Of a stretch of DNA of 63,762 nt, positions 10,902 through 50,140 are shown piece after piece. The notes beneath the pieces are model-generated. The model saw nothing but the letters and a program-made list of their open reading frames with translations. It had not been told where the DNA came from and made no database searches. The DNA is from Chloroflexia bacterium (GTDB lineage Bacteria; Chloroflexota; Chloroflexia; Thermomicrobiales; CFX8), in contig JAUIIK010000008.1 in NCBI GenBank assembly GCA_030431755.1, forward strand, positions 1 through 63,762. Reading direction: 5' to 3'. Position 1 is the first letter of the stretch. Each line of letters begins with the position of its first letter. The position numbers and the translations under genes are program-made.

Positions 10902-10932
10902 GGTACGCAGTACGCGCGAACTGCTTACGCGC
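10902..10932. promoter_or_regulatory. Operator pair at the early promoter
   Basis: GCGCGAACTGCTTACGCGC (10914-10932) is an imperfect palindrome centred near +15 of the PR-like promoter. It overlaps a second half-related site GGTACGCAGTACGCGC (10902-10917). The 19-bp site recurs near other prophage promoters (14641, 22197, 27630, 37635, 50122). Position suggests repression. Confidence 0.65.
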
Positions 10933-10953
10933 TGTAAGAGTAGGAGAGCGTCC

Positions 10954-11142
10954 ATGCCGGCGATGACCGCGAGCGGATTGATCAAGACCTCGGCCCAGCT
11001 GACGCCGGAACAGGCCGAGCAGCTGGCGGCGCTGGCAGAGCGGCGGGGTTGCTCGGTGGCGTTCCTGATCCGGGAGGCCATCGACACATGGCTCGCAACG
11101 CAGCGGGCCGCGAAGGGAGGGCGCGATGAGCGCGCTGGATAA
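10954..11142 (+). CDS. Small ribbon-helix-helix-type protein
   Basis: A 62-residue protein with LTPEQAEQLAALAERRGCSVAFLIREAIDTWL, the pattern of CopG/Arc ribbon-helix-helix DNA-binding proteins. First gene of the rightward early operon, with AGTAGGAGAG upstream of ATG 10954. By position and size it could be a Cro-like or early regulator. Confidence 0.7.
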   Translation: MPAMTASGLIKTSAQLTPEQAEQLAALAERRGCSVAFLIREAIDTWLATQRAAKGGRDERAG

Positions 11143-11395
11143 CGGCAGCCCGTGGCTGGCCAGTGATGTGACGGTGCCGGAGCCGGACGCCCACTGTGAG
11201 AGCTGCGGCGGGGCACTGTATGCCGGCTTCGACGAGTGGCAGAAGTTGCCGGCGCAGGATGGCGACGGCGAGACGACGTACACGATCTGCGCTGAGTGCG
11301 TCGAGGCGCAGCTGGAGGCCGGCCTCCAGCTGCTGGCCGAGGACCCCGCCTGGCAGCAGTTCGCCCGGCGCGTGGCCGAGACCCCAATCCCATGA
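11126..11395 (+). CDS. Small zinc-ribbon protein
   Basis: An 89-residue acidic protein with two CxxC pairs (HCESCGG and ICAEC) that probably bind one zinc. It overlaps the previous gene by 17 bp and has GGGAGGG before its ATG. Function unknown. The next 190 bp (11396-11585) hold no supported gene. Confidence 0.65.
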   Translation: MSALDNGSPWLASDVTVPEPDAHCESCGGALYAGFDEWQKLPAQDGDGETTYTICAECVEAQLEAGLQLLAEDPAWQQFARRVAETPIP

Positions 11396-11585
11396 TTCCC
11401 CAACATCCCGATCCCCTTCCCCGGCTGGTGGCGAGCTCACGCGAGCTGGCCGCCACGCCCGAGCGTGTGACGGAGCGGCGGACCCCTTCCCCCTGCCGAG
11501 CCGTTGCGCGCTCCGGCGTGGCTGTACGCCCAGCATAGGGCAGGGCGCGGCCGTGGAAATGCATTTGCAGAAAGGAGGCGGGCAA

Positions 11586-11915
11586 TTGCCGAGTGACGTG
11601 CTGCTGACCCAGCGGGCGGCCGACGAGGCGCTCGACGTCGAGCTGGCCTGCCGGCGGCTGATCGCGACGGTGCGGGCGGCGCTGGCTGACGGCGTCGTAA
11701 CGCCTGCGGAGGCGGCGGCGATGCTGGCGGAATCGAGCGCGGTGCTGACGGAAGCCGAGGAGGCGAAGCACTGGGCGGACGAGGCCCACAAGGTCGACGC
11801 GGCGCTCGACACGCTGCGCCGGGGCGGGGCGTTGAACCCGACGCCGCACAAGCGCGAGCGCTTTCGGGCGGCGAATCTGGACGTCGTCGAGGTGACCAAC
11901 GAAGTAGCCGTCTGA
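11586..11915 (+). CDS. Hypothetical early phage protein
   Basis: A 109-residue helical, Ala-rich protein. I start at TTG 11586 because a full Shine-Dalgarno AAAGGAGG lies 8 nt upstream; an open frame extends further but without a ribosome site. It contains a TPAEAAAML segment. Its stop codon lies in a perfect hairpin. Function unknown. Confidence 0.6.
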   Translation: MPSDVLLTQRAADEALDVELACRRLIATVRAALADGVVTPAEAAAMLAESSAVLTEAEEAKHWADEAHKVDAALDTLRRGGALNPTPHKRERFRAANLDVVEVTNEVAV

Positions 11916-11936
11916 GGAGCGCAATCCTCAGACGGC
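11907..11936. terminator. Perfect 12-bp hairpin over a stop codon
   Basis: GCCGTCTGAGGA (11907-11918), loop GCGCAA, TCCTCAGACGGC (11925-11936). The TGA of the upstream gene lies in the left arm. No T-tract follows, so it may be a terminator, a processing site or an RNA-stability element. Confidence 0.5.
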
Positions 11937-11938
11937 TG

Positions 11939-12301
11939 ATGTACCCGGACAGATTGGATACGACCCCAATGATAGCAAAGGAACGACCGCGAACGTACGA
12001 CGCCACAGCTGCGCTGGTCCAGCGCAGCTGTGGCGGTTGCCGCTTCTACCACGGCCTGTCGCAGCTGGCCGGCCAGGGGAAGTGCACGCATCCCCAGCGC
12101 CGCCGGCTGATGGACACGGTGCTGGTGCGGCGGCGCGAGCTGGCCTGCCGGGACCGGCATGACCGGGCACTGTGGGAGAGCTGCGCGCCGACCGAGCCGG
12201 TGACGCCGGCGCTGGACAGGGTGCTGCTGCACCTGCCGCCGCGGCTGTGCCGCTGGCCGAAGTTCCCGGTGGTGAACGAGTCAATCGAAGGGATTCAGTA
12301 A
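11939..12301 (+). CDS. Cysteine-rich hypothetical phage protein
   Basis: Up to 120 residues; ATG 11939 or the internal ATG 11969 could be the start, and neither has a strong ribosome site. It has CGGCRFYHG, GKCTHP, ACRDRH and SCAP, a spacing that could bind zinc or an Fe-S cluster. Codons in the middle form a perfect 35-nt inverted repeat (12001-12035). Function unknown. Confidence 0.55.
   Translation: MYPDRLDTTPMIAKERPRTYDATAALVQRSCGGCRFYHGLSQLAGQGKCTHPQRRRLMDTVLVRRRELACRDRHDRALWESCAPTEPVTPALDRVLLHLPPRLCRWPKFPVVNESIEGIQ
12001..12035. repeat. Perfect 17-bp inverted repeat with one-base centre
   Basis: CGCCACAGCTGCGCTGG (12001-12017), T, then its exact reverse complement (12019-12035). It can form a cruciform in DNA or a long hairpin in RNA and lies inside a coding frame. 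Confidence 0.85.
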
Positions 12302-12654
12302 TGGAGCTGGTCAGAAGCAACATCGTTGGCTACGCCGGCCGGCGGGCGGTGATTCACGAGGTGCTGGAGGAGACCCGCGAGGTGGTCGTGCTCTACCGCG
12401 AGCAGCTGCCGCCGGCGGAATGCCCGGACTGCAAGGGCCGGGGCGAGGTGCGGGTGGCGGTGCTGGGCTGTGTGAGCTGCGACCGCTGCGAGGGTCGTGG
12501 CGAGCTGCTGGCGCGGGAGGTGCTGCAGCGCGAGACGGTGTCGATCGACGAGCTGACGCGGCCGCCGGCTGAGGCTGAGCACCCGCTGGCGCGGGCGACC
12601 GGCAAGTTCCTGTCGAACCCGCAGGCCATCTTCGATGAGGAGGTGGCGTCGTGA
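12301..12654 (+). CDS. DnaJ-type zinc-finger small protein
   Basis: A 117-residue protein with CPDCKGRGEV and CDRCEGRGEL, i.e. two CxxCxGxG motifs as in DnaJ cysteine-rich domains, here without a J domain. It follows the previous gene with a stop/start overlap. Probable metal-binding early protein of unknown role. Confidence 0.65.
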   Translation: MELVRSNIVGYAGRRAVIHEVLEETREVVVLYREQLPPAECPDCKGRGEVRVAVLGCVSCDRCEGRGELLAREVLQRETVSIDELTRPPAEAEHPLARATGKFLSNPQAIFDEEVAS

Positions 12655-12875
12655 ACGCGCAGTCGAAGCGGGCGGGCGGCGGCTACACCGCGCCGGCGCA
12701 GGTTCACATCGAGGCGGGCTGGCCGTCCGGGATGACGCTCGACGCGAAGGTCGTCTTTCCGCCGGGCAAGGGGCCGGAGGACACGCTGGCGGTGTTCACG
12801 GCGCTGGAGCAGCTGGAGGCTGCGCTCGGCGAGGTCCAGCTGGTCAACAACGCGGAGCGGCAGGTGACGGCATGA
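12651..12875 (+). CDS. Hypothetical small phage protein
   Basis: A 74-residue protein starting at GTG 12651, overlapping the preceding stop by 4 bp (translational coupling). A beta-rich middle (VHIEAGWPSGMTLDAKVVFP) is followed by a helix. Function unknown. Confidence 0.6.
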   Translation: MNAQSKRAGGGYTAPAQVHIEAGWPSGMTLDAKVVFPPGKGPEDTLAVFTALEQLEAALGEVQLVNNAERQVTA

Positions 12876-13003
12876 GCGACCGCAAGGAGCCACGGGTGGG
12901 GGAGTGGGTTGAGCTGGCGCTGCAAGGGCTGGCGTTCTGCATCATCGTGATTCTGCTGGTGGGGATCTTCGCGATGCTGACGCCGCCGCCGGCCGCGCCA
13001 TGA
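12872..13003 (+). CDS. Small single-pass membrane protein
   Basis: 43 residues with one strong hydrophobic helix (LAFCIIVILLVGIFAML, about 20-37). Start ATG 12872 overlaps the preceding stop. Function unknown. Confidence 0.6.
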   Translation: MSDRKEPRVGEWVELALQGLAFCIIVILLVGIFAMLTPPPAAP

Positions 13004-13182
13004 ACGTCATGCGGCACACTATCGGACGCGGGCTGCACTGGCTGGCCTGGTGGCTGTCACGCTTCGCCTTCTGGGTCGAGGTCTGGCGCTGCGAGGAGTG
13101 CGGCCAGTACAGCCGCGACCCCATCCCCTACGACAGTTTTGAACACACCTGCCCGAACTGCGGGAAGGAAGCGAGTGTATGA
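13000..13182 (+). CDS. Small zinc-ribbon protein
   Basis: 60 residues. The aromatic-rich amphipathic N-terminus (LHWLAWWLSRFAFWVEVW) may associate with membranes and is followed by a zinc ribbon CEECGQYS...CPNCGKE. Coupled start with the previous gene (ATGA). Confidence 0.62.
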   Translation: MNVMRHTIGRGLHWLAWWLSRFAFWVEVWRCEECGQYSRDPIPYDSFEHTCPNCGKEASV

Positions 13183-13871
13183 GCAGCGACGAACAGAAGT
13201 TCAACCCGAACAAACACATGCGGGTCTTCGAGCGCCGGCAGCGGCAGCGGGACGGCAGCTACAAGACGGTGAAGATCGACTATCTGGACGTGAAGTGGCG
13301 CATCGTCTGGTTCCGCGAGGAGCACCCGGAGGGCTCGATCGAGACGCTGCTGAAGTCGACGCCGGGCGAGCCGCCGGCGGTGATGCAGGCGACGGTGCGC
13401 TACGTCGACCAGTACGACGACCAGGGCAAGCCGCTCTGGGTGACGGTGACCGGCTGGGGGCAGTGCGACCAGGATGACTGGAGCGACTGGCTGGAGAAGG
13501 CCGAGACGCGCGCCATCGGCCGGGCGCTGGCACTGGCCGGCTACGGGACACAATTCTGCGAGGACTTCGAGGAGGTCATTGCAGACGGCCCGGTCGACCA
13601 GGGCGAGCGGCGGCAACCCCAGCAGCGCAACGGCGGGAGTCCGGCACGCCGCTCCGGGGGCGAGACCGGCGAGTTGATGACCGCCAACCAGCAGAAGTAC
13701 ATCTTTTCGCTGGCACGCGAGGCGGGGCTGCCGAACGACGAGCTGGACGAGATCGTGCACGCGCGCTTCGGGCATGGCATGAGCGAGGTGCTCAAGAGTG
13801 AGGCCAGCGCGCTGATCGGCTCGCTGCAGGAGCTGCGGGATGAGCGGCAGCTGGCAGGAGCTGCGGGATGA
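13179..13871 (+). CDS. Phage recombination protein, single-strand-annealing type (candidate)
   Basis: A 230-residue protein. The N-terminal region has YLDVKWRIVWFREEHPEG and DWLEKAETRAIGRALALAG, a pattern I associate with phage proteins annotated as Rad52/Erf-like or ssDNA-binding. A Gln/Arg/Gly-rich linker (about 145-165) is followed by a helical domain (ELMTANQQKYIFSLAREAGL). It probably acts in phage replication or recombination. Assignment to a named annealase family needs profile comparison. Confidence 0.6.
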   Translation: MSSDEQKFNPNKHMRVFERRQRQRDGSYKTVKIDYLDVKWRIVWFREEHPEGSIETLLKSTPGEPPAVMQATVRYVDQYDDQGKPLWVTVTGWGQCDQDDWSDWLEKAETRAIGRALALAGYGTQFCEDFEEVIADGPVDQGERRQPQQRNGGSPARRSGGETGELMTANQQKYIFSLAREAGLPNDELDEIVHARFGHGMSEVLKSEASALIGSLQELRDERQLAGAAG

Positions 13872-14161
13872 TGAACCCACTGAAGAGCGCGTTGTTCTAC
13901 CGGAAGATGGACGAGGCGGGGATCTCGCAGGAGAAGCTGCTGGAGACGATGCGGCGGGTGCTGGGCGAGGTGAACGAGGACCCGGCCGACTACATCCTGG
14001 TCGCGCCGATCCTGGTCGTCCACAAGGACTTCAAGGAGCACCCGCTGAGCGCGCACGGTTTGCTGGTGGAGTTCGGACAGAACGTCTACTTCATGTCGAA
14101 GGCGCGGCTGATCGACGCGGTAGCGGCCGTCAAGGACGAGCCGCTGATTGTGAAGAACTGA
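13868..14161 (+). CDS. Hypothetical phage protein
   Basis: A 97-residue soluble protein, coupled start (ATGATG overlapping the upstream TGA). Segment YILVAPILVVHKDFKEHPLS is probably a beta core. I do not recognise the family. Confidence 0.58.
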   Translation: MMNPLKSALFYRKMDEAGISQEKLLETMRRVLGEVNEDPADYILVAPILVVHKDFKEHPLSAHGLLVEFGQNVYFMSKARLIDAVAAVKDEPLIVKN

Positions 14162-14173
14162 GAGGAGCGACGG

Positions 14174-14611: not shown

Positions 14612-14640
14612 GTGTTGTTGTGGCCAGAAATATGCAGGTC

Positions 14641-14671
14641 GCGCGAACCGTCTACGCGCAGGCTGTATACT
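14641..14671 (+). promoter_or_regulatory. Operator and promoter before the replication operon
   Basis: GCGCGAACCGTCTACGCGC (14641-14659) matches the early operator at 16 of 19 positions. Six bases later is TATACT (14666-14671), a good -10 preceded by TG. There is no good -35; the operator covers that position, so binding should block or replace normal -35 contact. Confidence 0.6.
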
Positions 14672-14735
14672 GGCCGTGTGTCGCTCGCGAGGGCGGCATC
14701 GGCGCTGTGGCGGGCGTCGTGAGAAGCGATTAGAG

Positions 14736-14807
14736 GGCCGACGAGGGCCGTTGCCACGGGTGTGTCTCTAGTCCACCCACCGCCACGGCAAACGGTCCTC
14801 GTCGGCC
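14736..14807 (+). ncRNA. Long hairpin leader before the replication initiator
   Basis: GGCCGACGAGGGCCGTTGCC (14736-14755) pairs over about 20 bp, with one bulge, with sequence at 14787-14807. An inner GGGTG/CACCC stem lies in the loop. It ends 23 nt before the GTG start of the initiator gene. It could be an attenuator, a translational control element or a counter-transcript target. Confidence 0.6.
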
Positions 14808-14830
14808 ATTCCTGTATCGGGGTGTAGCCA

Positions 14831-15787
14831 GTGACAGATCGCGGTGTGAGCAAGCGCAGGCCCTACGTTGCGCTCGGCTATGCCGACATCCGCCTCGGCC
14901 GCGACCTCAAAGGATCGGCATTCTTGCTCTACTGCTATCTCTCGCTACGGGTCGGGACCAACTCCGGCGCCTGGCCATCCTATGAGCGCATCAGCACAGA
15001 CACCGGCCTCGCGCCGGCGACGATCAGCAAGGGCCTGCGCCAGCTGGTCGACTACGGCGTGCTGCAGGTCGAGCGGCGGCGCAGCGAGGGCCGGCAGACG
15101 AGCAACTTCTACACGTTGCTCGATCCGCCCGACACTTCAGAAACTGAAGTAAACGGGACGACTCAGACTTCAGAAACTGAAGTCAGCCCCCAGCTGCCCC
15201 CAGAACCCCCTTCTACTTCAGGTTCTGAAGTGAAAAACGGACCCAGGGTAGCGCCCGACACTTCAGAACCTGAAGTGGGGGTAAACGGGACGACTCAGAC
15301 TTCAGAAACTGAAGAGGAAGAAACTACAGGGTTAAGACCTGAAGAAGCTTCAGATATTGCGCCTGCGGCGCGAGTCAGGCCGCGCGACCCGCTCTTCGAG
15401 GCGGTGGCGGAAGCCTGGCTGGGCAAGCCCTACCCCGAGCTGCAACTGACCAGATCCCAGCGCGGCAACGTCAATGCCTGCGTCGTGCAGCTGCGGGAGA
15501 TCAAGGCCTGCCCGGAGGCGGTCCCGCGCGAGTGGCAGCGGCTGCGGAGCATGTTCGATCACCCGACGCCGGCGGCGCTGGCGAAGCACTGGAACACCAA
15601 CGGCACGGGGCCGAAGCGAAAGGAGACCCCGGTTGATATCGCCCAACGAAGAATTATCAGTCGAGAGCAATCTCGAAGGGCTGGTCGCGATGCTGGCCGA
15701 AGCGACGACCGACCGCAGTGGGATGAGCGACTCCGAGATCGGGCGCTGGGCGCTGATGTACCGCGCCTTCCTGATGGTCGAGCGTAA
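14831..15787 (+). CDS. Phage replication initiator with embedded origin
   Basis: A 318-residue protein with an N-terminal winged helix (GSAFLLYCYLSLRVGTN..WPSYERISTDTGLAPATISKGL), a variable linker with repeated TSETEV/TSEPEV peptides (about 102-160), and a C-terminal domain typical of phage replication proteins. The linker codons contain six palindromic iterons, as in lambda O where the origin lies in the initiator gene. GTG start after a short GGGGTG site. Confidence 0.82.
   Translation: MTDRGVSKRRPYVALGYADIRLGRDLKGSAFLLYCYLSLRVGTNSGAWPSYERISTDTGLAPATISKGLRQLVDYGVLQVERRRSEGRQTSNFYTLLDPPDTSETEVNGTTQTSETEVSPQLPPEPPSTSGSEVKNGPRVAPDTSEPEVGVNGTTQTSETEEEETTGLRPEEASDIAPAARVRPRDPLFEAVAEAWLGKPYPELQLTRSQRGNVNACVVQLREIKACPEAVPREWQRLRSMFDHPTPAALAKHWNTNGTGPKRKETPVDIAQRRIISREQSRRAGRDAGRSDDRPQWDERLRDRALGADVPRLPDGRA
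15134..15353. other. Candidate replication origin: six palindromic iterons
   Basis: ACTTCAGAAACTGAAGT or close variants at 15134-15150, 15167-15183, 15215-15231, 15260-15276 and 15299-15315. A sixth, CTGAAGAAGCTTCAG, is at 15339-15353. Spacings (33, 48, 45, 39) are multiples of three because the repeats are translated. The local sequence after copy five is AT-richer than its surroundings and could be the unwinding element. Confidence 0.78.
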
Positions 15788-16349: not shown

Positions 16350-17863
16350 GCACGACATCGCACAACGAGAGCACCAGAACGGAGCACCCCATGACGACGA
16401 CCCTCTCTGATTCCGCACGAAATACGGACGCGCTGGTGCGCGAGATTCCGGTCGACCGGATCCACCGCAGCACCTTCAATCCGCGCCAGACCTTCGATGG
16501 CGAGCGCCTCGACGAACTGACAGCCTCAATCCAGCAGCACGGGCTGATCGAGCCGGTGGTGGTGCGGCCGCATCCCGACCCCGAGGACCTGCTGGGTTCT
16601 GGCGCGGATAGCTGGGTCGAGGAGCACTACGAGCTCATCGCCGGCGAGCGGCGCTGGCGGGCGGCACGGCAGGCCGGCCTCGAGGTGATCCCGGCGATGG
16701 TGCGGGATGTCGACGACGCGACGGCGATCCAGCTGGCGATCGTTGAGAACCTGCAGCGGGCCGATCTCGACCCGATCGAGGAGGCGGCGGGCTTCCAGCT
16801 GCTGATCGAGCGCGCCGGCATGACGCAGCGGGCGGCGGCGGCGGCGCTGAATCGCTCGCAGCCGGCGATCGCCAACGCGATGCGATTGCTGCGGTTGCCC
16901 GCCCATGCCCAGGACCTCATTCGCGAGGGCAAGCTAAGCCGGGCGCACGGCGTGGCGCTGATGCGCTTCGAGGAGTTCCCTGCGTTTCAGGAGGCGCTTG
17001 GCGACGTCGCAGTGAAGGACGGCCTGGCGAGCAAGGAGCTGGAGAAGCCCTTTGACAGCTACGACGTTGCCCGGCGGCTGCAAGGCGTGGCAGTTCCGCT
17101 CTACACGCGATTCGACGAGTGTGAGGACTGCCCGTTCAACGCGAGGCGCAAGGGTCAGTACCACGATTACTGCCTGAAGCCGGAGCACTTCGAGGAGCTC
17201 AGCGAGGCACGCGCCGCGGCGCGCGATGCCGAGCGCGACGAACGGCGGGCGGAAGCGGAGGCCGCCGGGGAGCTGCCGTCGATCCGGGACGTCGGCAGCC
17301 ACGAGGACCTGAGCTATGCGCTGGACCCGACAGCGGGCTGGACGAGCGTGCCGGCCGGCTGTAGCGAGGACTGCCCCTGCCGTTGTCGTGTGCTGAGCTG
17401 GCAAGGCGACCAGGTCATCCAGATCTGCGCCGACCCCGGCCGATACCGCGAGCTCCAGGAAGCTGAGAAGCAAGCCGAGACCGAGCGTAAGAAGGCGACG
17501 CTGGCGGGCCGCCTGGCGCAGCTCGAAGCAGCAATCGACGACCTACCGGCGCTGGGAACGATCGCGCCGGAAGAGCTCATTGTGCTGATGGGCGCGGCAC
17601 TGGAGCGCGTTGGCAAGAAGTCATTGCCGGGCCTGGTGGCCGAGCGTCAGGGGCATGCCGGGCTGGCCGAGCACCAGGACTGGAGCCGGTTCACGGTCCA
17701 GGAGCAGCCGCAGTTGTTTGGCCAGCTTGCAAGTCTCGACATCGTGAAGTTCGCACTGGAGGTGGTGCTGCGGAACGAGCTGCTGGACCGCTACGAGGGC
17801 TATGCCCGGAGCTCGCCACTGGCGGACTTCTACCTCGGCCCGGATGACGGCGAGGCGGCATGA
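16346..17863 (+). CDS. ParB/Spo0J-like DNA-binding protein
   Basis: A 505-residue protein. ParB N-terminal motifs (VDRIHRSTFNPRQTF, QHGLIEPVVVRPH, ELIAGERRWRAA, IVENLQRADLDPIEEA) are followed by a helix-turn-helix (MTQRAAAAALNRSQPAIANAMRL). The long C-terminal half has cysteine clusters (CEDCPFNARR...C, GCSEDCPCRC). No parA lies next to it, so it may act in replication or regulation (or use the CTPase/nuclease fold) rather than partition. Confidence 0.85.
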   Translation: MSTTSHNESTRTEHPMTTTLSDSARNTDALVREIPVDRIHRSTFNPRQTFDGERLDELTASIQQHGLIEPVVVRPHPDPEDLLGSGADSWVEEHYELIAGERRWRAARQAGLEVIPAMVRDVDDATAIQLAIVENLQRADLDPIEEAAGFQLLIERAGMTQRAAAAALNRSQPAIANAMRLLRLPAHAQDLIREGKLSRAHGVALMRFEEFPAFQEALGDVAVKDGLASKELEKPFDSYDVARRLQGVAVPLYTRFDECEDCPFNARRKGQYHDYCLKPEHFEELSEARAAARDAERDERRAEAEAAGELPSIRDVGSHEDLSYALDPTAGWTSVPAGCSEDCPCRCRVLSWQGDQVIQICADPGRYRELQEAEKQAETERKKATLAGRLAQLEAAIDDLPALGTIAPEELIVLMGAALERVGKKSLPGLVAERQGHAGLAEHQDWSRFTVQEQPQLFGQLASLDIVKFALEVVLRNELLDRYEGYARSSPLADFYLGPDDGEAA

Positions 17864-19178: not shown

Positions 19179-19552
19179 GCGCGCCGTTGATCGTGCGGTT
19201 TCGGGTCGACGGGCAGCCGGTGTCGCGCCAGACCGTCTGGGCGCGGCGCTATCACCGCTACCGGGCGCAGGTGTTCCGGGCGGCGCAGCGGGCGATGCGG
19301 GGCTTGCCGACCCACAGCCCGGTGGCGGTCGAGATCGTCTACCGCTCGGCCTTTGCCAGCGACGCCGACGGCGCGCCGGATCTCGACAACATTGCCAAGG
19401 GGATTCTGGACGGCATGCAGAAGGTCGTCTACAGCGACGACCGGCAGGTGCAGGATCTCCGCATTCGACGGGTCGCGGTTGCGGCCCAGCCGGAGCAGGT
19501 GGTTGTCACCGTCCGGCGTCATCCTGATGTGAGTGGAGGTGCTTTGCGATGA
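19175..19552 (+). CDS. RusA-family Holliday junction resolvase
   Basis: A 125-residue nuclease. FRVDGQPVSRQ at the N-terminus and DLDNIAKGILDGMQKVVYSDD (acidic catalytic cluster) match RusA, which cuts four-way junctions formed in phage recombination. ATG overlaps the previous stop. A second RusA-like gene is at 20616. Confidence 0.85.
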   Translation: MSAPLIVRFRVDGQPVSRQTVWARRYHRYRAQVFRAAQRAMRGLPTHSPVAVEIVYRSAFASDADGAPDLDNIAKGILDGMQKVVYSDDRQVQDLRIRRVAVAAQPEQVVVTVRRHPDVSGGALR

Positions 19553-19947
19553 ACGGCGAGAGCTTCGCGGTTGCACTGGAGCGCATACGGGACGATCACG
19601 GGCTGTCGCAGTCCCGCCTGGCGGCGCGGGCCGGCTACGACCACAGCTATGTCTCGCGGCTGGAGTCGGACAGCCGGTCGCCGACGCGGGACGCGGTGAT
19701 CGCGCTGGGCTCGGCGATGTTCTGCAGCGAGGTCGAGCTGGACGAACTGCTGATGGCGGCTGGCTTCGCGCCGCTCGATCCCGCGAACCTGCTGGCTGGT
19801 GAACCGGCGCTGGGCGAGGCCTACGAGCTGCTGTCCGGCGCGGAGCTGCCGGCCGACGTCAAAGACGACCTGCGGGCCGGTGTGCGAATGAGCGTGCGCC
19901 AGGCGCGGCGGGCGGGGTCGAGCTGGAAGGCGGCGGTTGATGGTTGA
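19549..19947 (+). CDS. XRE-family HTH protein
   Basis: A 132-residue protein with an N-terminal Cro/CI HTH (ALERIRDDHGLSQSRLAARAGYDHSYVSRLE) and a helical C-terminus with no protease domain. It is encoded on the lytic strand inside the replication block, so it is a second possible reader of the 19-bp operators. Confidence 0.78.
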   Translation: MNGESFAVALERIRDDHGLSQSRLAARAGYDHSYVSRLESDSRSPTRDAVIALGSAMFCSEVELDELLMAAGFAPLDPANLLAGEPALGEAYELLSGAELPADVKDDLRAGVRMSVRQARRAGSSWKAAVDG

Positions 19948-22196: not shown

Positions 22197-22227
22197 GCGT
22201 GGACGCGGTACGCGCATGATGTATATT
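22197..22227 (+). promoter_or_regulatory. Operator-like site and promoter before terminase
   Basis: GCGTGGACGCGGTACGCGC (22197-22215) matches the replication-operon operator at 13 of 19 positions. Six bases later is TATATT (22222-22227) preceded by TG, the same geometry as at 14641-14671. Confidence 0.52.
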
Positions 22228-23961: not shown

Positions 23962-25520
23962 GCGCGATGAACGGGCACGCGGGCGAGCTGCTGGAGCTGC
24001 TACAGGATGGGCCGCAGGAGTTCCTGATCGAGCGGCTGGCGCGGCTGGAGGATGCGCTGCTCGGCTGGGACAAACTCAGCGGCGATGGCGAGCTGGACTT
24101 CAGCCGGGAGTCGCTGCGGAGGATCGCCAAGACGGCGCGGGAGTTCTACCTGGCGAACCCGCTGGTCGGGCGCGGGCTGCGGGTCATGCGTTACTACGTC
24201 TTCGGCCAGGGCGTCTCGGTCAAGGCGAAGGACGAGCTGGTCAACGAGGTGGTCCAGGAGTTCTGGCTGCACCACCGCAATCAGGCGGTACTCACGTCGA
24301 CGCAGGCGATGGGCGACCAGGGCACGTCGTTGTCGGTGGAGGGCAATCTCTTCTTTGCCCTCTTTACCAACGGCTTCACCGGCCGGGTGCAGGTGCGCTC
24401 GATCCCCTTCGCCGAGATCGACGAGGTCGTCTGCGATCCCCAGGACCGGGCCGTGCCGTGGTTCTACAAGCGCACCTGGCGGGAGCCGCGCGACCCGTTG
24501 GGCGGCGGCATGGACAGCCGCACGCTGACGGCCTACTACCCGGATTGGCAGCACCCGGCGGTGCGCGATCCGGCACGGGAACGGCCGGACATGGTGGCGG
24601 GCAAGATGATCGTATGGGACACGCCCATCCGGCACGTGCGGGTCGGCGGGCTGCCAGACATGACGTTCGGCGTGCCGGAGGTCTACGCGGCGATCGACTG
24701 GGCGCGGGCCTATGCCCGGAGTCTGTCGGACGACGCCACCCGCAGCGCGGCCCTGGCCCGCTTTGTGTACCGCTTGTCGGTCGGCGGCGGGCAGCAGCGG
24801 GTCAATGCGGCCAAGAGCAAGCTGGGGACGACGCTCAACGACGCGGCCGGGACCGAGGAGACGAACCCGCCGCCGGCGCGGGGCAGCATCGCCGTGGTCC
24901 CGAAGGGCCAGGAGCTGGAACCGATGCGGGTGGCCGGCGCGACCTTGCAGCCGGACCACAACCGTTCGCTGCGGACGCACACGGCGGCGGCGATGGATCT
25001 GCCGGAGACCTTCTTCGGCGACGCCAACGTCGGCAACCACGCGACGGCGAAGACGCTGGACCGGCCGACGGAGCTGAAGTTCGCGGAGCGCCAGGAGCTC
25101 TGGACGGGCTTGTTGACGGGCCTGTGCCGCTACGCGGTCGAGCAGAGCGCGATGGCCCCCTACGGGCTGCTGCAGGGCAAGCGGGTGATCAACCCCTTCG
25201 ACCCGGACGATGTGCGGATCGAGCTGATCGGCGTCGCGGACGACCACATCGACGTGGACTTCCCCAGCATCTTGGAGGCCGACCTGGTCGAGTACGTCAA
25301 CGCGATCGTCGAGGCGGCGACGCTGTCCGGGTCTCCCAACGCCGGCATCTTCGACGACAAGACGCTGCGGCGGATGCTGCTGGTGGCGCTGCGGGAGAAC
25401 GATATTGACGCGGTGATGGCGGAGATCGAGGCGGAGCTGGCGAAGGCCGGGGCGGAGGTCGCCGAGGAGGCCGAGCTGGCGGCGGCGGTCCGCGAGCTGA
25501 GGGAGGCGCTACCACAATGA
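23958..25520 (+). CDS. Portal protein
   Basis: A 520-residue protein directly after the terminase with an ATGA overlap. It has the portal layout: a helical N-terminus, ANPLVGRGLRVMRYYVFGQG, a central clip/stem with LPETFFGDANVGNHATAKTL, and an acidic helical C-terminus. It forms the ring at the capsid vertex through which DNA passes. Confidence 0.88.
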   Translation: MSAMNGHAGELLELLQDGPQEFLIERLARLEDALLGWDKLSGDGELDFSRESLRRIAKTAREFYLANPLVGRGLRVMRYYVFGQGVSVKAKDELVNEVVQEFWLHHRNQAVLTSTQAMGDQGTSLSVEGNLFFALFTNGFTGRVQVRSIPFAEIDEVVCDPQDRAVPWFYKRTWREPRDPLGGGMDSRTLTAYYPDWQHPAVRDPARERPDMVAGKMIVWDTPIRHVRVGGLPDMTFGVPEVYAAIDWARAYARSLSDDATRSAALARFVYRLSVGGGQQRVNAAKSKLGTTLNDAAGTEETNPPPARGSIAVVPKGQELEPMRVAGATLQPDHNRSLRTHTAAAMDLPETFFGDANVGNHATAKTLDRPTELKFAERQELWTGLLTGLCRYAVEQSAMAPYGLLQGKRVINPFDPDDVRIELIGVADDHIDVDFPSILEADLVEYVNAIVEAATLSGSPNAGIFDDKTLRRMLLVALRENDIDAVMAEIEAELAKAGAEVAEEAELAAAVRELREALPQ

Positions 25521-25645
25521 CGAAGTCTGAATACGTTCGCTGCGCTCGGTGCCGGCGTGAGTGCGTGCCGTTTCGTCGCGATCCGCACACCAAGAAGCCG
25601 GTCTGTTTCAACTGCTCGACATGGAAGGACGAAGAGCCCGAATGA
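25517..25645 (+). CDS. Very small zinc-ribbon protein
   Basis: 42 residues with CARCRREC and CFNC. Its ATG overlaps the portal stop and its stop overlaps the next ATG, so it is tightly coupled. Function unknown. Confidence 0.58.
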   Translation: MTKSEYVRCARCRRECVPFRRDPHTKKPVCFNCSTWKDEEPE

Positions 25646-27437: not shown

Positions 27438-27637
27438 ACGCTGAGGAGCTGCAAACGATCCTGCGGCTGATCGACGCGGCCGAAGATCCGGGCTACCTGG
27501 TGCCGCTCGACGTCGTGCGGGAGTTCGCGCGCATCCGCCAGGCGGGGCTGACCGGGACGTTGGAGATCGACATCAAGGACGGCGAGCCGCAGAGCCGGCG
27601 CTGGATACCGCCACGGGTGCGGATCGAGCGCGCGTAG
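27434..27637 (+). CDS. Hypothetical phage protein
   Basis: 67 residues from TTG 27434, coupled to the previous stop. Contains LVPLDVVREFARIRQAGLTG, probably a small helical fold. It is the last gene before the head promoter. Confidence 0.52.
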   Translation: MNAEELQTILRLIDAAEDPGYLVPLDVVREFARIRQAGLTGTLEIDIKDGEPQSRRWIPPRVRIERA

Positions 27638-27677
27638 ACGCATCGCGCTTGCGGCATTCGCGCGAGTCGGTTAGACT
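27630..27677 (+). promoter_or_regulatory. Operator and promoter of the capsid genes
   Basis: GCGCGTAGACGCATCGCGC (27630-27648) directly abuts -35 TTGCGG (27649-27654); spacer 17; -10 TAGACT (27672-27677). The cargo promoter at 37606-37653 has the same geometry. A hairpin (GTTGCCG/CGGCAAC, 27724-27754) lies in the leader before the protease gene. Confidence 0.62.
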
Positions 27678-27781
27678 CCACCTGACAACCCAGATCAAGC
27701 AGAGACCCACGAGAGCCTGCTGAGTTGCCGCCCCGCTGCGACGGGCCCGGCAACCGGCGGGCTTTGTGCATTGGAGCGGCA

Positions 27782-29068
27782 GTGAGCGTTCTCGACCGGA
27801 TCAAGACATGGATGGCGCTCGAAGAGGCGGAGCTGTCGCACCGGGACATCGCCCGGCAGCTGCGGTCGGCGATTGACGCCGCGCACACCGGCGACTACTG
27901 GATCTGGCTCAAAGACACCTTCGATGACCGCGTGATCTACGAGATCACGAACCGCCACACTGACGAGTCGGCCCTGCTCCAGCGCTCCTATTCCATCGAC
28001 GAGGACAGCGGCAAAGTGACACTGGGCGACGCCGTGCAGGTGCGCCAGGTGACGACCTATGAGCCGATCGAGGAAGCGGCGGCCGAGAGCGCGGGCAACG
28101 CCACGCTCACCGACGAGATTGTGCCGCTGATTGAGAAGGCGGTGGCGGACGACGGCACAGTGCCGATCAAGGTCATCGCGCCGGGTTGGGGATCGAGCGG
28201 CTACTACAGCCCGGAGGTCCTCCAGAACGCTGCCGGCGTCATCCCGCCCGGCACCCACATGTACATCGATCACCCCACCGTGACGGAAGAGCAGGAGCGC
28301 CCGGAACGCTCGGTGCGCGACCTGGCGGCGATCACCGTCGAGGACGCGGTCTGGCAGGAGGAGGGCGCTCAGGGGCCGGGCCTCTACACCAGGGCGCAGA
28401 CGATCGCCGGCTTCGGCGCGGTACTCGACGAGATCGCGCCGCATATCGGCGTCAGCATTCGCGGCCGCGGCCGGCGCTCAGAGGGCGAGGTCGAGGGTCA
28501 GAAGGGGCTGATCGTCAACAGCATCGAGGCGATGGACTCCATTGACTTTGTGACCCTGCCGGGGGCCGGCGGGGCGATTGGCGAGCTCGTGGAGAGCGCG
28601 CGCAGCGGCCAGAGGCCGGAAGGAGCCGAGACCGTGACGGACAACAGCAACCCCCAGGCCCAGCCGGCTGACAACGGCGTGCTGGAGGAGACGCAGCGGA
28701 AGCTCGCGAAGGTCGAGGCCCAGCTGGCACGGAGCGAGGCGCGCGCCCACATCACGGATGCGCTGGCCGAGCGGCGTCTGCCAGAGGCGATTCGCGCGAA
28801 GCTGATGCCGGCTCTGGCGCGGGACATTCCGCTTACGGAGGACGGCGAGGTTGACACCGCCAAGCTCGATGACCGCATCGAGGAGGCGGTGAAGGCGGAG
28901 CTGGCCTATCTGGAGCAGGTCGCGCCAACGGGCCGGGTGACCGGCTTCGGCGGCGGGCCGATTGACGAGTCCGAGGTGGACGAGGAGACGCTGGACGCCA
29001 GCATCGCGGAGGGCTTCGCGGCCTTCGGGCTGAGCGAGTCGGCGGCCAAGCGCGCGGCGGCGTTCTAA
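27782..29068 (+). CDS. Prohead protease fused to scaffold domain
   Basis: The 428-residue protein starts at GTG 27782 after GGAGCGGCA. The protease half (about 80-260) has IDHPT with a likely catalytic His, VSIRGRG with a likely Ser, and MDSIDFVTLPGAGG, in the order seen in capsid maturation proteases. The C-terminal half (about 300-428) is coiled coil (EETQRKLAKVEAQLARSEAR) as in scaffolds. Such fusions guide shell assembly and then digest the scaffold. Confidence 0.75.
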   Translation: MSVLDRIKTWMALEEAELSHRDIARQLRSAIDAAHTGDYWIWLKDTFDDRVIYEITNRHTDESALLQRSYSIDEDSGKVTLGDAVQVRQVTTYEPIEEAAAESAGNATLTDEIVPLIEKAVADDGTVPIKVIAPGWGSSGYYSPEVLQNAAGVIPPGTHMYIDHPTVTEEQERPERSVRDLAAITVEDAVWQEEGAQGPGLYTRAQTIAGFGAVLDEIAPHIGVSIRGRGRRSEGEVEGQKGLIVNSIEAMDSIDFVTLPGAGGAIGELVESARSGQRPEGAETVTDNSNPQAQPADNGVLEETQRKLAKVEAQLARSEARAHITDALAERRLPEAIRAKLMPALARDIPLTEDGEVDTAKLDDRIEEAVKAELAYLEQVAPTGRVTGFGGGPIDESEVDEETLDASIAEGFAAFGLSESAAKRAAAF

Positions 29069-35753: not shown

Positions 35754-35889
35754 GCGCGAATTCAAGGCGCAGCTGCGGGCCTGCTACCTCCAGCTGGCCG
35801 CGGCGGAGGACGCCCAGGCGGAACGCCGCGCCTGGTTGCGGCTGGCCAAGCTGATTACACGGCGATACGACGAACCCCCGGCCCAATGA
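35746..35889 (+). CDS. Small hypothetical protein after the tail chaperones
   Basis: 47 residues (MTEREFKAQLRACYLQLAAA...), ATG overlapping the T-frame stop. Its stop codon lies within the loop of a terminator. Probably a short helical protein; function unknown. Confidence 0.6.
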   Translation: MTEREFKAQLRACYLQLAAAEDAQAERRAWLRLAKLITRRYDEPPAQ

Positions 35890-35899
35890 CCGGGGGTTC
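35872..35899 (+). terminator. Terminator ending the head/tail chaperone operon
   Basis: GAACCCCCGG (35872-35881), 8-nt loop, CCGGGGGTTC (35890-35899), then TGTTG. It cuts the late operon before the reverse-strand cargo. Confidence 0.8.
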
Positions 35900-36291
35900 T
35901 GTTGTGGCGGCGTGACTGGTAAGGGATAGAACAGTCAACGCGCCTTGTGCTGCCTCGGGCGGACGCGGCAGGTCGCTATGACATGCGTTGCCTTGCCGTG
36001 GCTTGGCTTGTCGCTATGGCGCGACGAGGCGTGGCAGGAAAGGGCTTGGCCAGGCAAGTCGCGGTGACGTGGCCGGGCGAGTCAAGGCCAGGATGGACGA
36101 GGCTGGTCGTTCTGGCATGCGGCGCGAAGGCCGGACATGACGAGGCACGCGATGACAAGTCGCGGTGACGTGGGGAGACACGTCGCGAACTGACGCAACT
36201 AGACATGACGAGTCGTCGTGGCGAGACACGTCGCGAACTGACGGAGCTAGACCTGTCGCGCCGAAGTGATTTGATCTGTTGGGCGACATGG
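35900..36291. repeat. Repeat-rich noncoding region
   Basis: No supported gene. Direct repeats include GACACGTCGCGAACTGAC at 36177-36194 and 36225-36242 (period 48) and CAAGTCGCGGTGACGTGG at 36055-36072 and 36156-36173 (period 101). Many short words such as GACGAG and CATGACG recur. It separates the convergent late operon and cargo cassette. Confidence 0.6.
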
Positions 36292-36987: not shown

Positions 36988-37531
36988 CGGTGGCCTCCTC
37001 GGTGATTTCATTCAAGATACGGTCGATGTCCTCGTCGGTGTAGCGGTCCTCGACGGTCTCGCCATCCTCCAGCTGCTCGGCGAGCCGTTCCATCAGCATG
37101 GCGCGGGAGATGTCGATCGACGCCCGCTGCCGCCGCTCGCCCGCCGCTTTCAGCAGGTCGTCGCGCGTCATCTTCGGCAGGCGGATGTGCCGCTCGCCGA
37201 CGTGCTCCATCCAGCTGGACCAGCGGCTCTTCTTCGCCCGCTTCGTGAGTTCCTCGCGCGTGACGAGCTCGTCACCCAGCTGGATGTGCGTGCTGGTCGC
37301 GGTCCGCGTCGTGGCGACAACGGACTGCGCTTCGCTGTAGACCATCTGGCGGAAGTTCTCCTGGAAGTAGCGCTCGACGACCTTGGGCTGCTTCGCGAAG
37401 TGCGTGCAGGCCTGCTCGGTGAGGAATGGCAGCTCGATGGCGTCTTCACCATCGAGCGCTGCGCGAATCCAGGCGCGGACTTCGCTGCGGACGGATTTCT
37501 GGGTGGTTGGTGCGGTACCCTTAGAGGGCAT
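36980..37531 (-). CDS. Reverse-strand cargo protein, helical
   Basis: A 183-residue protein, first gene after the cargo promoter. Mostly helical and charged; DDLLKAAGERRQRASIDISR and LEDGETVEDRYTDEDIDRIL near the C-terminus. It is translationally coupled to the RAMP-like gene (8-bp overlap), so the two probably act together. I do not recognise it. Confidence 0.6.
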   Translation of the reverse strand: MPSKGTAPTTQKSVRSEVRAWIRAALDGEDAIELPFLTEQACTHFAKQPKVVERYFQENFRQMVYSEAQSVVATTRTATSTHIQLGDELVTREELTKRAKKSRWSSWMEHVGERHIRLPKMTRDDLLKAAGERRQRASIDISRAMLMERLAEQLEDGETVEDRYTDEDIDRILNEITEEATDE

Positions 37532-37605
37532 GGGAGCTGTGTCCTTCCATGCAATGGTCTCGTGCGTTCCAGCGCCCGAGACCTTTCTTTTGTCATTGCG
37601 ACTGA

Positions 37606-37653
37606 AGATAACAGACGATCCGCGTACGTGTCAAGCGCGATCTGCATACGCGC
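37606..37653 (-). promoter_or_regulatory. Cargo promoter with adjacent operator
   Basis: Reading leftward: operator GCGCGTATGCAGATCGCGC (37635-37653), then -35 TTGACA (37629-37634), 17-bp spacer, -10 TTATCT (37606-37611). The near-consensus promoter predicts strong transcription of the two-gene cassette. In the opposite reading the operator matches the early operator at 17 of 19 positions. Confidence 0.8.
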
Positions 37654-37886
37654 TATCCGCTTCGTCGCAACTGGAGGATGTTGTCCTCGAATCCAGCCGG
37701 CCGGACCATGAAGCCCTGAGCGCCCAGCACGTCGCTGAGCAGCTCAAACATGGTGGCGGCGAGGGCGACGTCGGGGCCGGCCTCGATGTCGAGCGTGGCC
37801 CGTCGGCAGGCGGTCGCAATGAGCGCGGCGTCTGCCTGATCCATCTCCAGGTGGGCCGACTGGCCCTCGTACTTCAGAATGCGCAT
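37653..37886 (-). CDS. Small hypothetical protein (reverse strand)
   Basis: 77 residues with AGGAAGGAAACACC before ATG 37886. Pattern MRILKYEGQSAHLEMDQADA plus a helix; its stop lies at the edge of the cargo operator. It is expressed divergently from the HTH gene at 38040. Function unknown. Confidence 0.58.
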   Translation of the reverse strand: MRILKYEGQSAHLEMDQADAALIATACRRATLDIEAGPDVALAATMFELLSDVLGAQGFMVRPAGFEDNILQLRRSG

Positions 37887-38039: not shown

Positions 38040-38243
38040 ATGAGTGTTCGAAAACTCATTAACTTGACAGAAGCGCGAGAGATGATCGGAGTCAGCAAGA
38101 CGACAATGGCCCGGCTGGTTCGCGAGGGGTCGTTCACGATCTTCGTCAACCCGGTTGACCGCCGAGAGAAGCTTGTCGATCAAGCTGAGGTCGAGGCATT
38201 CTTGCGACCTAAACCGCTTGAAGAGGGAAAAGCGGCCGCCTGA
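38040..38243 (+). CDS. Excisionase-like HTH DNA-binding protein
   Basis: 67 residues: KLINLTEAREMIGVSKTTMARLVREGSFTIFVNPVDRREKLVDQAEVEAFL is the MerR-like/excisionase (HTH_17) fold. It could be a local regulator or the recombination directionality factor for the serine integrase. It lies far from int, and phased repeats sit just upstream. Confidence 0.72.
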   Translation: MSVRKLINLTEAREMIGVSKTTMARLVREGSFTIFVNPVDRREKLVDQAEVEAFLRPKPLEEGKAAA

Positions 38244-46172: not shown

Positions 46173-46185
46173 AGAGGAGGCCGGG

Positions 46186-46536: not shown

Positions 46537-46546
46537 GAGCACAACG

Positions 46547-47704
46547 ATGATGACGGTACGACGCTGGCTGGTGATTCCGCTCGGGCTCATGCTGATCCTG
46601 AGCAGCGGCGTGATGCTGACCGGGGCGACCGAAACCTCCGGGACGCTGATCCTCTGCGAGGCGGGCGACGGCTCGCTGTCGCTGGCCTCAACAGGCGAAG
46701 AGTGTGTTGGCACGCCCTACGAGATCGAGGGCGAACCGTGGCAGGCAGAGCCGACGGCGACCGAGACGGCCACGGCGACGAACACGCCGGAGCCGACGGC
46801 TACCGAGACGCCATCGCCGACACCAACCGCAACCGAGCCCCCGGCAACGAGCCTGTGGCATCCACCGACCGATCACGAGCATGGCGATGCGCCACCAGCG
46901 TGGGCCGATACGTGGTCGCAGGCCACCTTCGGCCATCCGGTCGTCTTCGGCGGTGACGAGGCGACGCCGAACGAGAACCTGCACAAGCATGAGGCGTACA
47001 AGGGCTTCCTGATCGACTTCTTCACCACCTGGCCCTACACCGTTGACATGGAAATCTACGCTCGTCTGCACTTCCAAACGAATCCGCATGGGCGGGCGGC
47101 GCAGTACCACTCCTACGAGATCTACGCCTTGGATCAGTTAACCGGCGACATTTCTTTCTGGCAGGGCTGGCTCGACTTTGGAGAGGTGCCGGCGAACCGT
47201 TTCGAGAAGCCGGCGACGACGTTGACATGGGCGTTGAACAACACTGATGGTGACCTGATTCTCGGGCAGGGTGCTGGGTCGACCGGCACTGAGGATTGGT
47301 ACAGCCGGAACACGGCGGCGGAATGGTCCTGGATCATAGACCTGCGTGTCCACGATCCGTCGACCACGACGGACGCCCCTGCTGAGTACACCGACCCGAC
47401 AAATCAATCGACCTGGATACCAACCGGAGACTACGGGCTTGACCGGCGGTTGGGGCTCAACTTTGTGGTTGAAGGGGAGGAATTCAATCACATTCTGGAA
47501 ACGCGCAATATGGAGAATCCACGCGGCTGGTTCTGCGCGACGGTGTTCGGTGAAATCACACAGTTGAGCGTAACGGGGCCGGGCGACTGCAATCCCGGGT
47601 CGCTGCCACAATACATCGCGCCAACGATGCCGGAAATGCCGCACCCGGTCCACCCGTCTGTGAGCAAGGTCTACCCATGCCCAGCGTGCCAGTTGCCCAA
47701 CTGA
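46547..47704 (+). CDS. Secreted Thr/Pro-linker protein, possible lysogenic cargo
   Basis: A 385-residue protein with a signal peptide (RRWLVIPLGLMLILSSGVML), a Thr/Pro/Glu-rich linker (about 68-100) and a beta-rich domain starting HPPTDHEHGDAPPAWAD with several histidines that may bind metal. Export signals are unusual for a tail protein, and the later part of the gene is AT-richer than neighbours. It may be a lysogenic conversion gene resembling host surface proteins. Confidence 0.68.
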   Translation: MMTVRRWLVIPLGLMLILSSGVMLTGATETSGTLILCEAGDGSLSLASTGEECVGTPYEIEGEPWQAEPTATETATATNTPEPTATETPSPTPTATEPPATSLWHPPTDHEHGDAPPAWADTWSQATFGHPVVFGGDEATPNENLHKHEAYKGFLIDFFTTWPYTVDMEIYARLHFQTNPHGRAAQYHSYEIYALDQLTGDISFWQGWLDFGEVPANRFEKPATTLTWALNNTDGDLILGQGAGSTGTEDWYSRNTAAEWSWIIDLRVHDPSTTTDAPAEYTDPTNQSTWIPTGDYGLDRRLGLNFVVEGEEFNHILETRNMENPRGWFCATVFGEITQLSVTGPGDCNPGSLPQYIAPTMPEMPHPVHPSVSKVYPCPACQLPN

Positions 47705-47712
47705 GCTAGCTG

Positions 47713-49980
47713 ATGGGGCAGTTCTACACCGACTTTAGCGACTCGCCGACGCTAACCGAGCGTTGGCATACGGGCGATGGCGCGGTCACGGTTGAGACAT
47801 CCAGCCTGCCGACAGGCTCCGGCACGCATGTTGCGAAGATTGTGATGTCCGCTGGCGGGCGGTATGCCGTGTCCTGGGATGAGGTCGGTACGCCGAGTGG
47901 TGACGTAGAAGTCTTGCTCAAGTGGCAGGTGGAGAACACGCCGGATGGCAACGCTGGGCGGGCAATCGTGCACGGCTCGGGGGATTCCTCGTCCGAAACC
48001 GGTTACTTCGCAAACCATAACGTATTTGGAAGCAGTACATTCGTTTTTGGCCTCATCAAGTACGATTCCGCAGCTTCGACGACGCTGGCCACCGGCAACG
48101 ACAACCTAAGCGAGGACACCTGGTACTGGACCCGGGTCCAGCGCACTGGTACCACAATACGTCGGCGGACCTGGGCCGATGGGGGTTCGGAGCCCGGTAC
48201 ATGGAGCTTTAGTGCGACCGATGCGGCGCTATCGAGCGGCTGGATTGGTTTCGGCGCATCCACCTCCGGGCAGGTCATGTGGGTCGACGAGATGGGCGTC
48301 GGAACGGGCGGCGATGCCGCGCCGGATACCTACGTCGCCCAGGACATCACCCTCAACCACCTGGGACCGACGACGGCGCTCTACGAGATGGCCGTCACCC
48401 CGCCCACGCAGACGGTGTCGATGCAGGCGATCGGGCCGACGGCGCAGGTACACCAGATGACGGTGATCGGCGATCAGACGATCAGCCTGAACCACCTCGG
48501 GCAGACCAGCCAGCTCTACGGCCTGACTGTCTCGCCCGATCAGGACGTGACACTCAACCATCTGGGGCCGACGGCGCAGCTCTACGAGGCCGCCGTCGCG
48601 TTCCCGGCGCAGGCCGTCACGCTCAACCACATCGCGGCCACGACGGCCCTCTACCAGCTGGCGGTCAGCCCTGGCGCGGTGACGGTAATACTGGCGCACC
48701 TGGGGCCGTCGTCGGAGGTGTTCGATGCCGGGCTGGTCTACACCCAAACGATCACGTTGGCGCATCTGGGGCCGACGTCACAGGTGTTCGCACCCCAGCG
48801 CATCAAGAAGATCATCATCCTCGCGCCGCTGGCCCCAGGCGGGCCGCCAGAGTTCGCGTTGGTGGTGACGGGACCGCTGCCTGACGGGGCGTTCGTGGCG
48901 CGGCAACGGCTGCCGGCTGACCTGGCGCTGTCCTTCGGCTCGCAGCTGCCGGGGGGCTGGGCCTCGCTGAGTGCCGGGGTGCTCGACGACACGTTGCGGC
49001 GGGTGCTGTCGGCGACGGAGGTGCAGGCGATGGTGTTGCCCTATCCGGTCGAAGCGCCGCCCTTCGCGCATGTCGAGCTGCTGGAGGCGGGCACCGGGCG
49101 CGTTTGGGAGGGCCGGCGGTCAGCGGTCGACGACGTCGGCGGCGAGATTCGCGGCATCGAGGCGGTGGGCTACGGCATCACCGGGCTGCGCGATCAGCCG
49201 ATGCCGGGCGGCCGGGGCGCGGTGCGGAGCGACGTGCTGGTGCGGGCGGCGATCGCCCAGGCCGCGCCGCTGATCGAGCTGCTGGAGGTCGAGGACCCCG
49301 GCGTGCTGCGGGACTGGCGCGAGTTCGCCGGGCGCTGGCCGCACGATGTGCTGTCGACGCTGACCGGGGCCGGGAACGGCGCGGTGGCGTTTACCTGGAC
49401 CGTCTACGACCGGCAGCTGCGCTTCTTCGCGCTGACGCCGCCGAGCACGCCCCATTACCAGGTGCCGGCCGACGGGACGGTGCGGCGGCGGCTGGGCAGC
49501 GACGAGATCTACACGGCACTGACGATGAGTTACACCGACCTCGATGGGCGGCGGCGCTCGACCGGGACGCTGCGGGACGAGTTCGCGATTGCGAAGTACG
49601 GCATCGAACGGGTCTACCCGATCCCCGACGGCGGGACGATGACGCCGGCGGCGGCGCTGGCCTTCGCCCGCACCGAGCTGGCCAAGCGCACCCAGGAGGG
49701 CGTGGCGGTCAGTATCACGCGCGACTGGACGCGGGGCGTCGAGACGAGCTGGGGCTCGCAGACGCCGGTCTGGCGGGTGCAGGCGGGCGAGTGGTTGCAG
49801 GTGGCTGACGAGGCCATGCAGCCGATCACGGCGGTGAGCTACGACGCCCAGGCGGGCAGCGGCACGGTGACGCTGGGCCAGCCGGTGGCGACGTCGGCCG
49901 CGGCGGAGTGGCGGCGGATGCAGGAGACGATTGCGGCGGTGCGGGGTGGTCGGAACCCGGTGACGGGCGCGGCGTCGTGA
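47713..49980 (+). CDS. Tail protein with seven short repeats
   Basis: A 755-residue protein. Residues about 1-200 form a concanavalin-like beta domain (DFSDSPTLTERW...). Residues about 208-362 hold seven 22-24-residue repeats of the form ITLNHLGPT-x2-LY-x3-V, and the C-terminal 390 residues resemble a tail-hub/baseplate domain (ALTPPSTPHYQVPADG; ITRDWTRGVETSWG). It is probably part of the adsorption apparatus. Confidence 0.7.
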   Translation: MGQFYTDFSDSPTLTERWHTGDGAVTVETSSLPTGSGTHVAKIVMSAGGRYAVSWDEVGTPSGDVEVLLKWQVENTPDGNAGRAIVHGSGDSSSETGYFANHNVFGSSTFVFGLIKYDSAASTTLATGNDNLSEDTWYWTRVQRTGTTIRRRTWADGGSEPGTWSFSATDAALSSGWIGFGASTSGQVMWVDEMGVGTGGDAAPDTYVAQDITLNHLGPTTALYEMAVTPPTQTVSMQAIGPTAQVHQMTVIGDQTISLNHLGQTSQLYGLTVSPDQDVTLNHLGPTAQLYEAAVAFPAQAVTLNHIAATTALYQLAVSPGAVTVILAHLGPSSEVFDAGLVYTQTITLAHLGPTSQVFAPQRIKKIIILAPLAPGGPPEFALVVTGPLPDGAFVARQRLPADLALSFGSQLPGGWASLSAGVLDDTLRRVLSATEVQAMVLPYPVEAPPFAHVELLEAGTGRVWEGRRSAVDDVGGEIRGIEAVGYGITGLRDQPMPGGRGAVRSDVLVRAAIAQAAPLIELLEVEDPGVLRDWREFAGRWPHDVLSTLTGAGNGAVAFTWTVYDRQLRFFALTPPSTPHYQVPADGTVRRRLGSDEIYTALTMSYTDLDGRRRSTGTLRDEFAIAKYGIERVYPIPDGGTMTPAAALAFARTELAKRTQEGVAVSITRDWTRGVETSWGSQTPVWRVQAGEWLQVADEAMQPITAVSYDAQAGSGTVTLGQPVATSAAAEWRRMQETIAAVRGGRNPVTGAAS

Positions 49981-50096
49981 GGATCCGACGCGCGAGGATG
50001 GCCTGAGCGCGTCCGGGAAGGGCGTAGCTGAGTCCTCCATCATGTGCGGGGTCGAACGCGGCAGGGCGGTACCGCGACGCTCGCCAGGCGAGGAAC

Positions 50097-50140
50097 TATA
50101 CTGTCGGTGGAAATGCAGAACGCGCGTACCGCGTGGGCGC
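50097..50140 (+). promoter_or_regulatory. Lysis promoter and downstream operator
   Basis: TATACT (50097-50102) is a -10 with no good -35. GCGCGTACCGCGTGGGCGC (50122-50140) lies about +22 from the expected start, and the sequence GCGGTACCGCGACGC is upstream at 50067-50081. Similar in arrangement to the early promoter operator. Confidence 0.5.

Follow-up and report, generated by a model that had tools for sequence, protein, structure and literature searches.

The strategy of dispersing one operator over a phage genome is already known from other phages, and the prophage described here would be a further instance of it. In phiC31, a GC-rich serine-integrase phage, inverted repeats bind repressor c. 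P1 is described as carrying 22 operators of one repressor, C1, dispersed over the phage genome (PMC8546580), and in the account given for SPbeta a repeated element, SPBRE, lies at prophage promoters, where it is bound by the master repressor MrpR (PMC10516654). Mycobacteriophage L5 is reported to use one repressor with many stoperators genome-wide, the consensus differing between heteroimmune phages (PMC6550527). Separate dyads bound by a ParB-family protein are described for the KorB operators of RK2 and for the SopB sites IR1-4 of N15 (PMC11790492, PMC7205306). A literature search for operators of a Chloroflexota prophage returned none among the matches listed.

The window analyzed here is a whole contig of 63,762 bases from a genome of ~5.15 Mb in 272 contigs. 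It contains a prophage that extends from a serine integrase gene at the left to a right end somewhere within 54-57 kb. Gene coordinates were taken from a purpose-built codon-usage gene finder, and the ORFs 14831-15787, 25518-25645, and 38040-38243 were added by hand. The genes used below are the following:

8289-9884, - strand, serine integrase, left prophage end
10369-10851, - strand, XRE/CI-type regulator of 160 aa, matching HTH_31, HTH_3, and a 434-repressor-like HTH
10954-11142, + strand, RHH protein of 62 aa, first early gene
16391-17863, + strand, ParB-type protein of 490 aa
from 19175, RusA
19549-19947, + strand, XRE protein, phage member of a regulator family conserved across the host order
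from 22702, TerL
from 23958, portal
from 27782, head protease
from 29983, head protein
from 38671, tape measure
from 51204, endolysin
from 52817, holin (weak match)

Among 30 further prophage proteins scanned, HTH_36 was matched by one and DnaD_N by one, and both matches were assigned to ORF 14831-15787 because of its place. Within this ORF, the 17-bp palindrome ACTTCAGNNNCTGAAGW occurs five times at 15134-15315 (0.01 expected), an iteron-like array that makes this a candidate site for the replication origin; in lambda, the O gene holds the iteron array. The single HTH_17 match of the same scan is probably the small late-region ORF 38040-38243, which looks HTH- or excisionase-like by eye and is divergent from 37653-37886. 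Next to the XRE gene at 10369, and overlapping it by 4 bp, the gene at 9941-10372 encodes a 143-aa protein with a signal-like N-terminus and an LGC lipobox-like start, which could be an exclusion lipoprotein expressed in the lysogen. Other repeats were seen at 35754-36291, a 538-bp stretch without a called gene with CGCGAC-type dyads and an imperfect 48-bp repeat present at 36053, 36154, and 36202, and at 48337-48686, where 80-nt imperfect repeats occur three times within ORF 47713-49980. A second phage-like contig of the same genome (L076, G000:C38) shares with the prophage the C-terminal end of the tape measure (61%) and the gene after it (47%).

The element shared by the six sites is a 19-bp dyad, GCGCGWA-N5-TWCGCGC, listed here with no strand assigned:

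10914-10932, operator 1, GCGCGAACTGCTTACGCGC, just past the start predicted for the rightward early promoter
14641-14659, operator 2, GCGCGAACCGTCTACGCGC, ending 6 bp before TATACT (14666-14671), upstream of the ParB operon
22197-22215, operator 3, GCGTGGACGCGGTACGCGC, ending 6 bp before TATATT (22222-22227), ahead of TerL and the structural genes
27630-27648, operator 4, GCGCGTAGACGCATCGCGC, abutting TTGCGG, upstream of the head protease and capsid genes
37635-37653, operator 5, GCGCGATCTGCATACGCGC, abutting the TTGACA of a leftward promoter
50122-50140, operator 6, GCGCGTACCGCGTGGGCGC, downstream of TATACT (50097-50102), upstream of the gene at 50165 and the lysis genes

The repetition and spacing of this dyad are directly observed. 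Reading each of the six sites in both directions (12 readings) shows no variation in columns 1-3 and 17-19, 11/12 agreement in columns 4, 5, 15, and 16, and either A or T in columns 7 and 13. The first-pass annotation had already reported all six sequences at these positions, and its match counts were reproduced (16/19 for 14641; 13/19 for 22197 against 14641). It had erred in reading two sites in reverse: against the 10914 site, 37635 matches at 17/19 in the + orientation and 11/19 reversed, and 50122 at 14/19 and 13/19, respectively. Orientation means little here, because the element is a dyad. Weaker copies (11/14 positions) lie 15 bp off three of the main sites, at 10899-10917, in tandem to operator 1, and at 27645-27663 and 37620-37638, both overlying the -35 of their promoters. 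These copies are only suggestive, as four of their bases come free from the shared GCGC.

An exhaustive dyad search over 31 intergenic prophage segments (7-mer halves, gaps 0-11, at most two mismatches) returned precisely these six sites as its top set, and none of 200 Markov simulations matched the six, the maximum being four regions. Looser searches were not significant, six regions being reached in 13/200 simulations with at most three mismatches and in 6/60 with 6-mer halves. With a pattern drawn from the 10914 site alone (at most two mismatches), 10 prophage places were found versus 1.3 expected at the whole-genome rate, and 7 of the 10 were non-coding versus 0.12 expected; these seven are the six named sites and the weak copy at 27645. 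The half-sites occur at 10 places with the N5 spacer and at 0-4 places with spacers of 0-4 and 6-12. A 6-mer count against coding DNA gave eight non-coding and two coding places, and simulated windows held 0.4 places of at least 12/14 versus 7 observed, for a pattern drawn with the sites in view. Of the genome's matches, the two perfect ones (2/2) and 3/10 of those with one mismatch fall inside the prophage, one of the latter (25636) being coding. Across the whole genome there was no overall enrichment of the 10914 pattern at up to two mismatches (140 palindromic places versus 201 for the reversed control). The sites are thus concentrated in the phage genome, as in dispersed-operator immunity. 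The coding matches at 16415, 25636, and 52763 (at most two mismatches) look like chance, and 25636 was rejected as an operator, its one-mismatch match spanning two overlapping small reading frames. The earlier claim that one operator recurs at six transcription units has good support.

All six sites adjoin promoter-like sequence and are intergenic or at gene edges. With transcription starts placed from sequence (-10-like hexamers), the offsets of the site centres from the starts fall in pairs: -28 for 14641 and 22197, -45/-46 for 27630 and 37635, and +15/+22 for 10914 and 50122. This agrees with the geometry first described, in which two sites end 6 bp before a -10, two abut a -35, and two lie downstream of the start. 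The -35 hexamers concerned are TTGCGG at 27630 and TTGACA at 37635, and the downstream sites lie 6-24 bp past the start at 10914 and 13-31 bp past it at 50122. At 14641 and 22197, the TG stands immediately before the hexamer and misses a genuine extended -10 by one base. The promoter-like sequences with both hexamers are the following:

10873-10901, + strand, rightward early promoter, TTGACG-17-TATTCT
27649-27677, + strand, promoter-like TTGCGG-17-TAGACT behind operator 4
37605-37634, - strand, promoter-like TTGACA-18-TATCTT, leftward, behind operator 5

At the early promoter, the -35 partly coincides with the -35 of a promoter-like sequence directed toward the XRE gene (palindrome TTGACGGTCAA). 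TATANT occurs five times in the prophage, always in non-coding DNA, and four of the five are no more than 60 bp from one of the six sites, although such positions make up just 536 of the 4279 non-coding bases; these four hexamers represent three places, one being read on both strands. One operator thus stands at several separate, predicted phage promoters, as in phiC31-, P1-, and SPbeta-type immunity.

Strong leader hairpins were also noted between operator-linked promoters and first genes, at 14678-14835 (-77 kcal/mol), 27684-27790 (-45 kcal/mol), and 37524-37598 (-27 kcal/mol). Similar hairpins, ending in TTTnGCATTT, are present on another contig, G045:C270 (L028 8396, 11306).

The likeness to phiC31 lies in one intergenic palindrome repeated over early and late regions; the same dyad search applied to phiC31 recovered TACTCACGTGAGTA at 15 places, spread over 13 regions (null 2-3). 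The phiC31 set differs in its sequence, in its larger number of sites, and in being a 14-bp gapless dyad, and the phiC31 repressor gene has 2,052 bases, whereas the prophage XRE has 160 aa. The element also differs from the C1 site of P1, described as 17-bp and asymmetric (PMC8546580), and from SPBRE, described as a 15-bp motif whose binder MrpR has a recombinase fold (PMC10516654). L5 stoperators, as characterized in PMC6550527, are asymmetric, mostly off promoters, and oriented with transcription, whereas the six sites are dyads next to promoter-like sequence and do not belong to that type. For N15, the search found the GCGACC-type SopB dyad at three places, a recovery and not a significance result, as this count is no higher than the null.

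Our preferred reading, to which we give a probability of about 0.6, takes the six dyads as the dispersed operators of a single lysogeny repressor, for which the divergently encoded XRE protein at 10369-10851 is the most likely candidate. A dimer of this protein would bind GCGCGWA-N5-TWCGCGC. In the lysogen, the repressor would block the early promoter from 10914, the ParB operon from 14641, the terminase and structural operon from 22197, the capsid promoter from 27630, a leftward two-gene operon from 37635, and the lysis end from 50122. It would do so in three ways: by covering the -35 and spacer, by binding next to a -35 that is itself overlain by a weaker copy, or by binding just past the start. 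For the sites at -28 and those beyond the start, it is difficult to see any role but blocking.

Two XRE proteins had been named as possible binders. XRE 10369, the candidate for one phage-encoded master repressor at all sites, has a 434-repressor-like HTH (E 8e-4), and no peptidase family was among its domain matches. We favor it over XRE 19549 because the strongest site, 10914, and its weak tandem copy lie between its gene and the divergent early gene encoding the RHH protein. Homologues of XRE 10369 elsewhere (nine loci and L070) had no comparable upstream dyad. XRE 19549 is disfavored and was set aside: it shares 60% and 61% identity with two paralogues of the host, its family is matched in 59/61 genomes of the host order, and a dyad of at least 12/14 was found at none of 20 family loci (L100-L119, L100 being the window's own), with 11/14 reached in 3/20. 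Several host copies of this family have repeated TGTCG or TGGCG words in their promoters, as judged by eye.

The contig G070:C552, from a related phage, encodes proteins 44% (TerL), 29% (ParB), and 31% (early protein) identical to those of the window, along with proteins matching phage integrase and Cro/CI-type HTH. Its best dyad set is the AT-rich ATTTA-N4-TAAAT, in seven intergenic regions (0/200 simulations); it is unrelated in sequence to the prophage dyad, and two members stand in matching places, upstream of TerL and of ParB. The TerL copy is separated from the TerL gene by one small gene, as in the window, and the ParB copy lies directly upstream of its gene, whereas the window's site is three genes upstream; a further copy separates a small HTH-like gene from ParA. 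This AT-rich dyad may be a promoter element (late) instead of an operator. Dispersed dyad sets were thus found in 2 of 12 loci, the prophage and G070, the others being five TerL loci and five ParB records. No comparable set was found in the five other TerL-bearing loci, four of which gave two or three regions at best; in the GC-rich G057, GC palindromes occur in eight regions versus 5-7 in 20 simulations. Dyad scans of G045:C270 and G000:C38 gave nothing significant; G045:C270 carries a 13-bp dyad, CGCTGACACAGCG, twice, once upstream of a head-protease homologue. Viral contigs searched with ParB and the portal yielded no close prophage relatives. A second copy of the system on G000:C161 was considered and rejected: its one-mismatch site is internal to a predicted reading frame (L072 1709-2236), and the XRE is the sole prophage gene with a match there. 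A class-wide search for the operator with TATANT at 6 bp (at most two mismatches) gave matches in 20/158 genomes, about the level of the reversed control, and no second case.

It is also conceivable, if unlikely, that the ParB protein at 16391, for which no ParA was seen among the proteins scanned, recognizes the dyads and silences from dispersed sites in the manner of KorB, or that the dyads are N15-like partition sites. In both phages with dispersed dyads, ParB has a C-terminal part rich in Cys (the two proteins are 29% identical), and in G070 dyads are found immediately upstream of parB and parA. However, a comparable set was absent from all five named records with a ParB homologue, the best being the GC-rich palindromes of Aval in four regions (null 2-3). 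The parS, OB, and SopB motifs tried matched the window with 2-5 mismatches at best and at none of the six sites. No ParA family was found among the prophage proteins scanned (a subset of the ORFs). The sequences and spacing differ from those of the KorB and N15 systems; here the 7-bp halves stand 5 bp apart, farther than in the N15 sites.

About as doubtful is a genome-wide switch set by exact operator position (the three paired offsets), in which the ParA-less ParB or one XRE would repress the lytic units and activate the capsid promoter or the leftward operon, the lineage keeping operator places while swapping their sequence.

We give little credence to the RHH protein at 10954, an Arc/Cro-like protein, as the binder, acting as an early lytic repressor or together with the XRE. 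Its gene starts 21 bp past the strongest site and the weaker copies 15 bp away suggest tandem binding, but it is the first gene of the lytic side, and master repressors are usually expressed in the lysogen.

The first-pass annotation had proposed that one regulator blocks some promoters and helps others. The single operator at six units stands, as set out above; help at 27630 and 37635 is conjectural. A dual-role regulator, repressing at 10914, 14641, 22197, and 50122 and activating at the other two, appears improbable. Both 27630 and 37635 abut the -35 with identical geometry, and lambda CI abuts the -35 at PRM, where it activates. Against this, it is precisely these two promoters whose -35 is overlapped by a weaker copy, so that plain blocking is at least as likely there as activation, and the promoter at 37635, with its full TTGACA, should need little help; on these two grounds we favor blocking at both sites. 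Finally, that the six repeats are chance or some other type of repeat is very hard to credit: the DNA is GC-rich and the looser searches were not significant, but the strict search with its simulations, the spacer control, and the genome-wide rate all oppose it.

The dyad-enumeration test, with which the phiC31 and N15 sites were recovered, could be applied to any phage genome. For the biology of these phages, repression of six units by XRE 10369 would give a prophage of a little-studied bacterial lineage a testable immunity circuit. The comparison with G070, which involves two phages only, suggests that operator places can persist while the operator sequence changes, a route by which new immunity groups would form.
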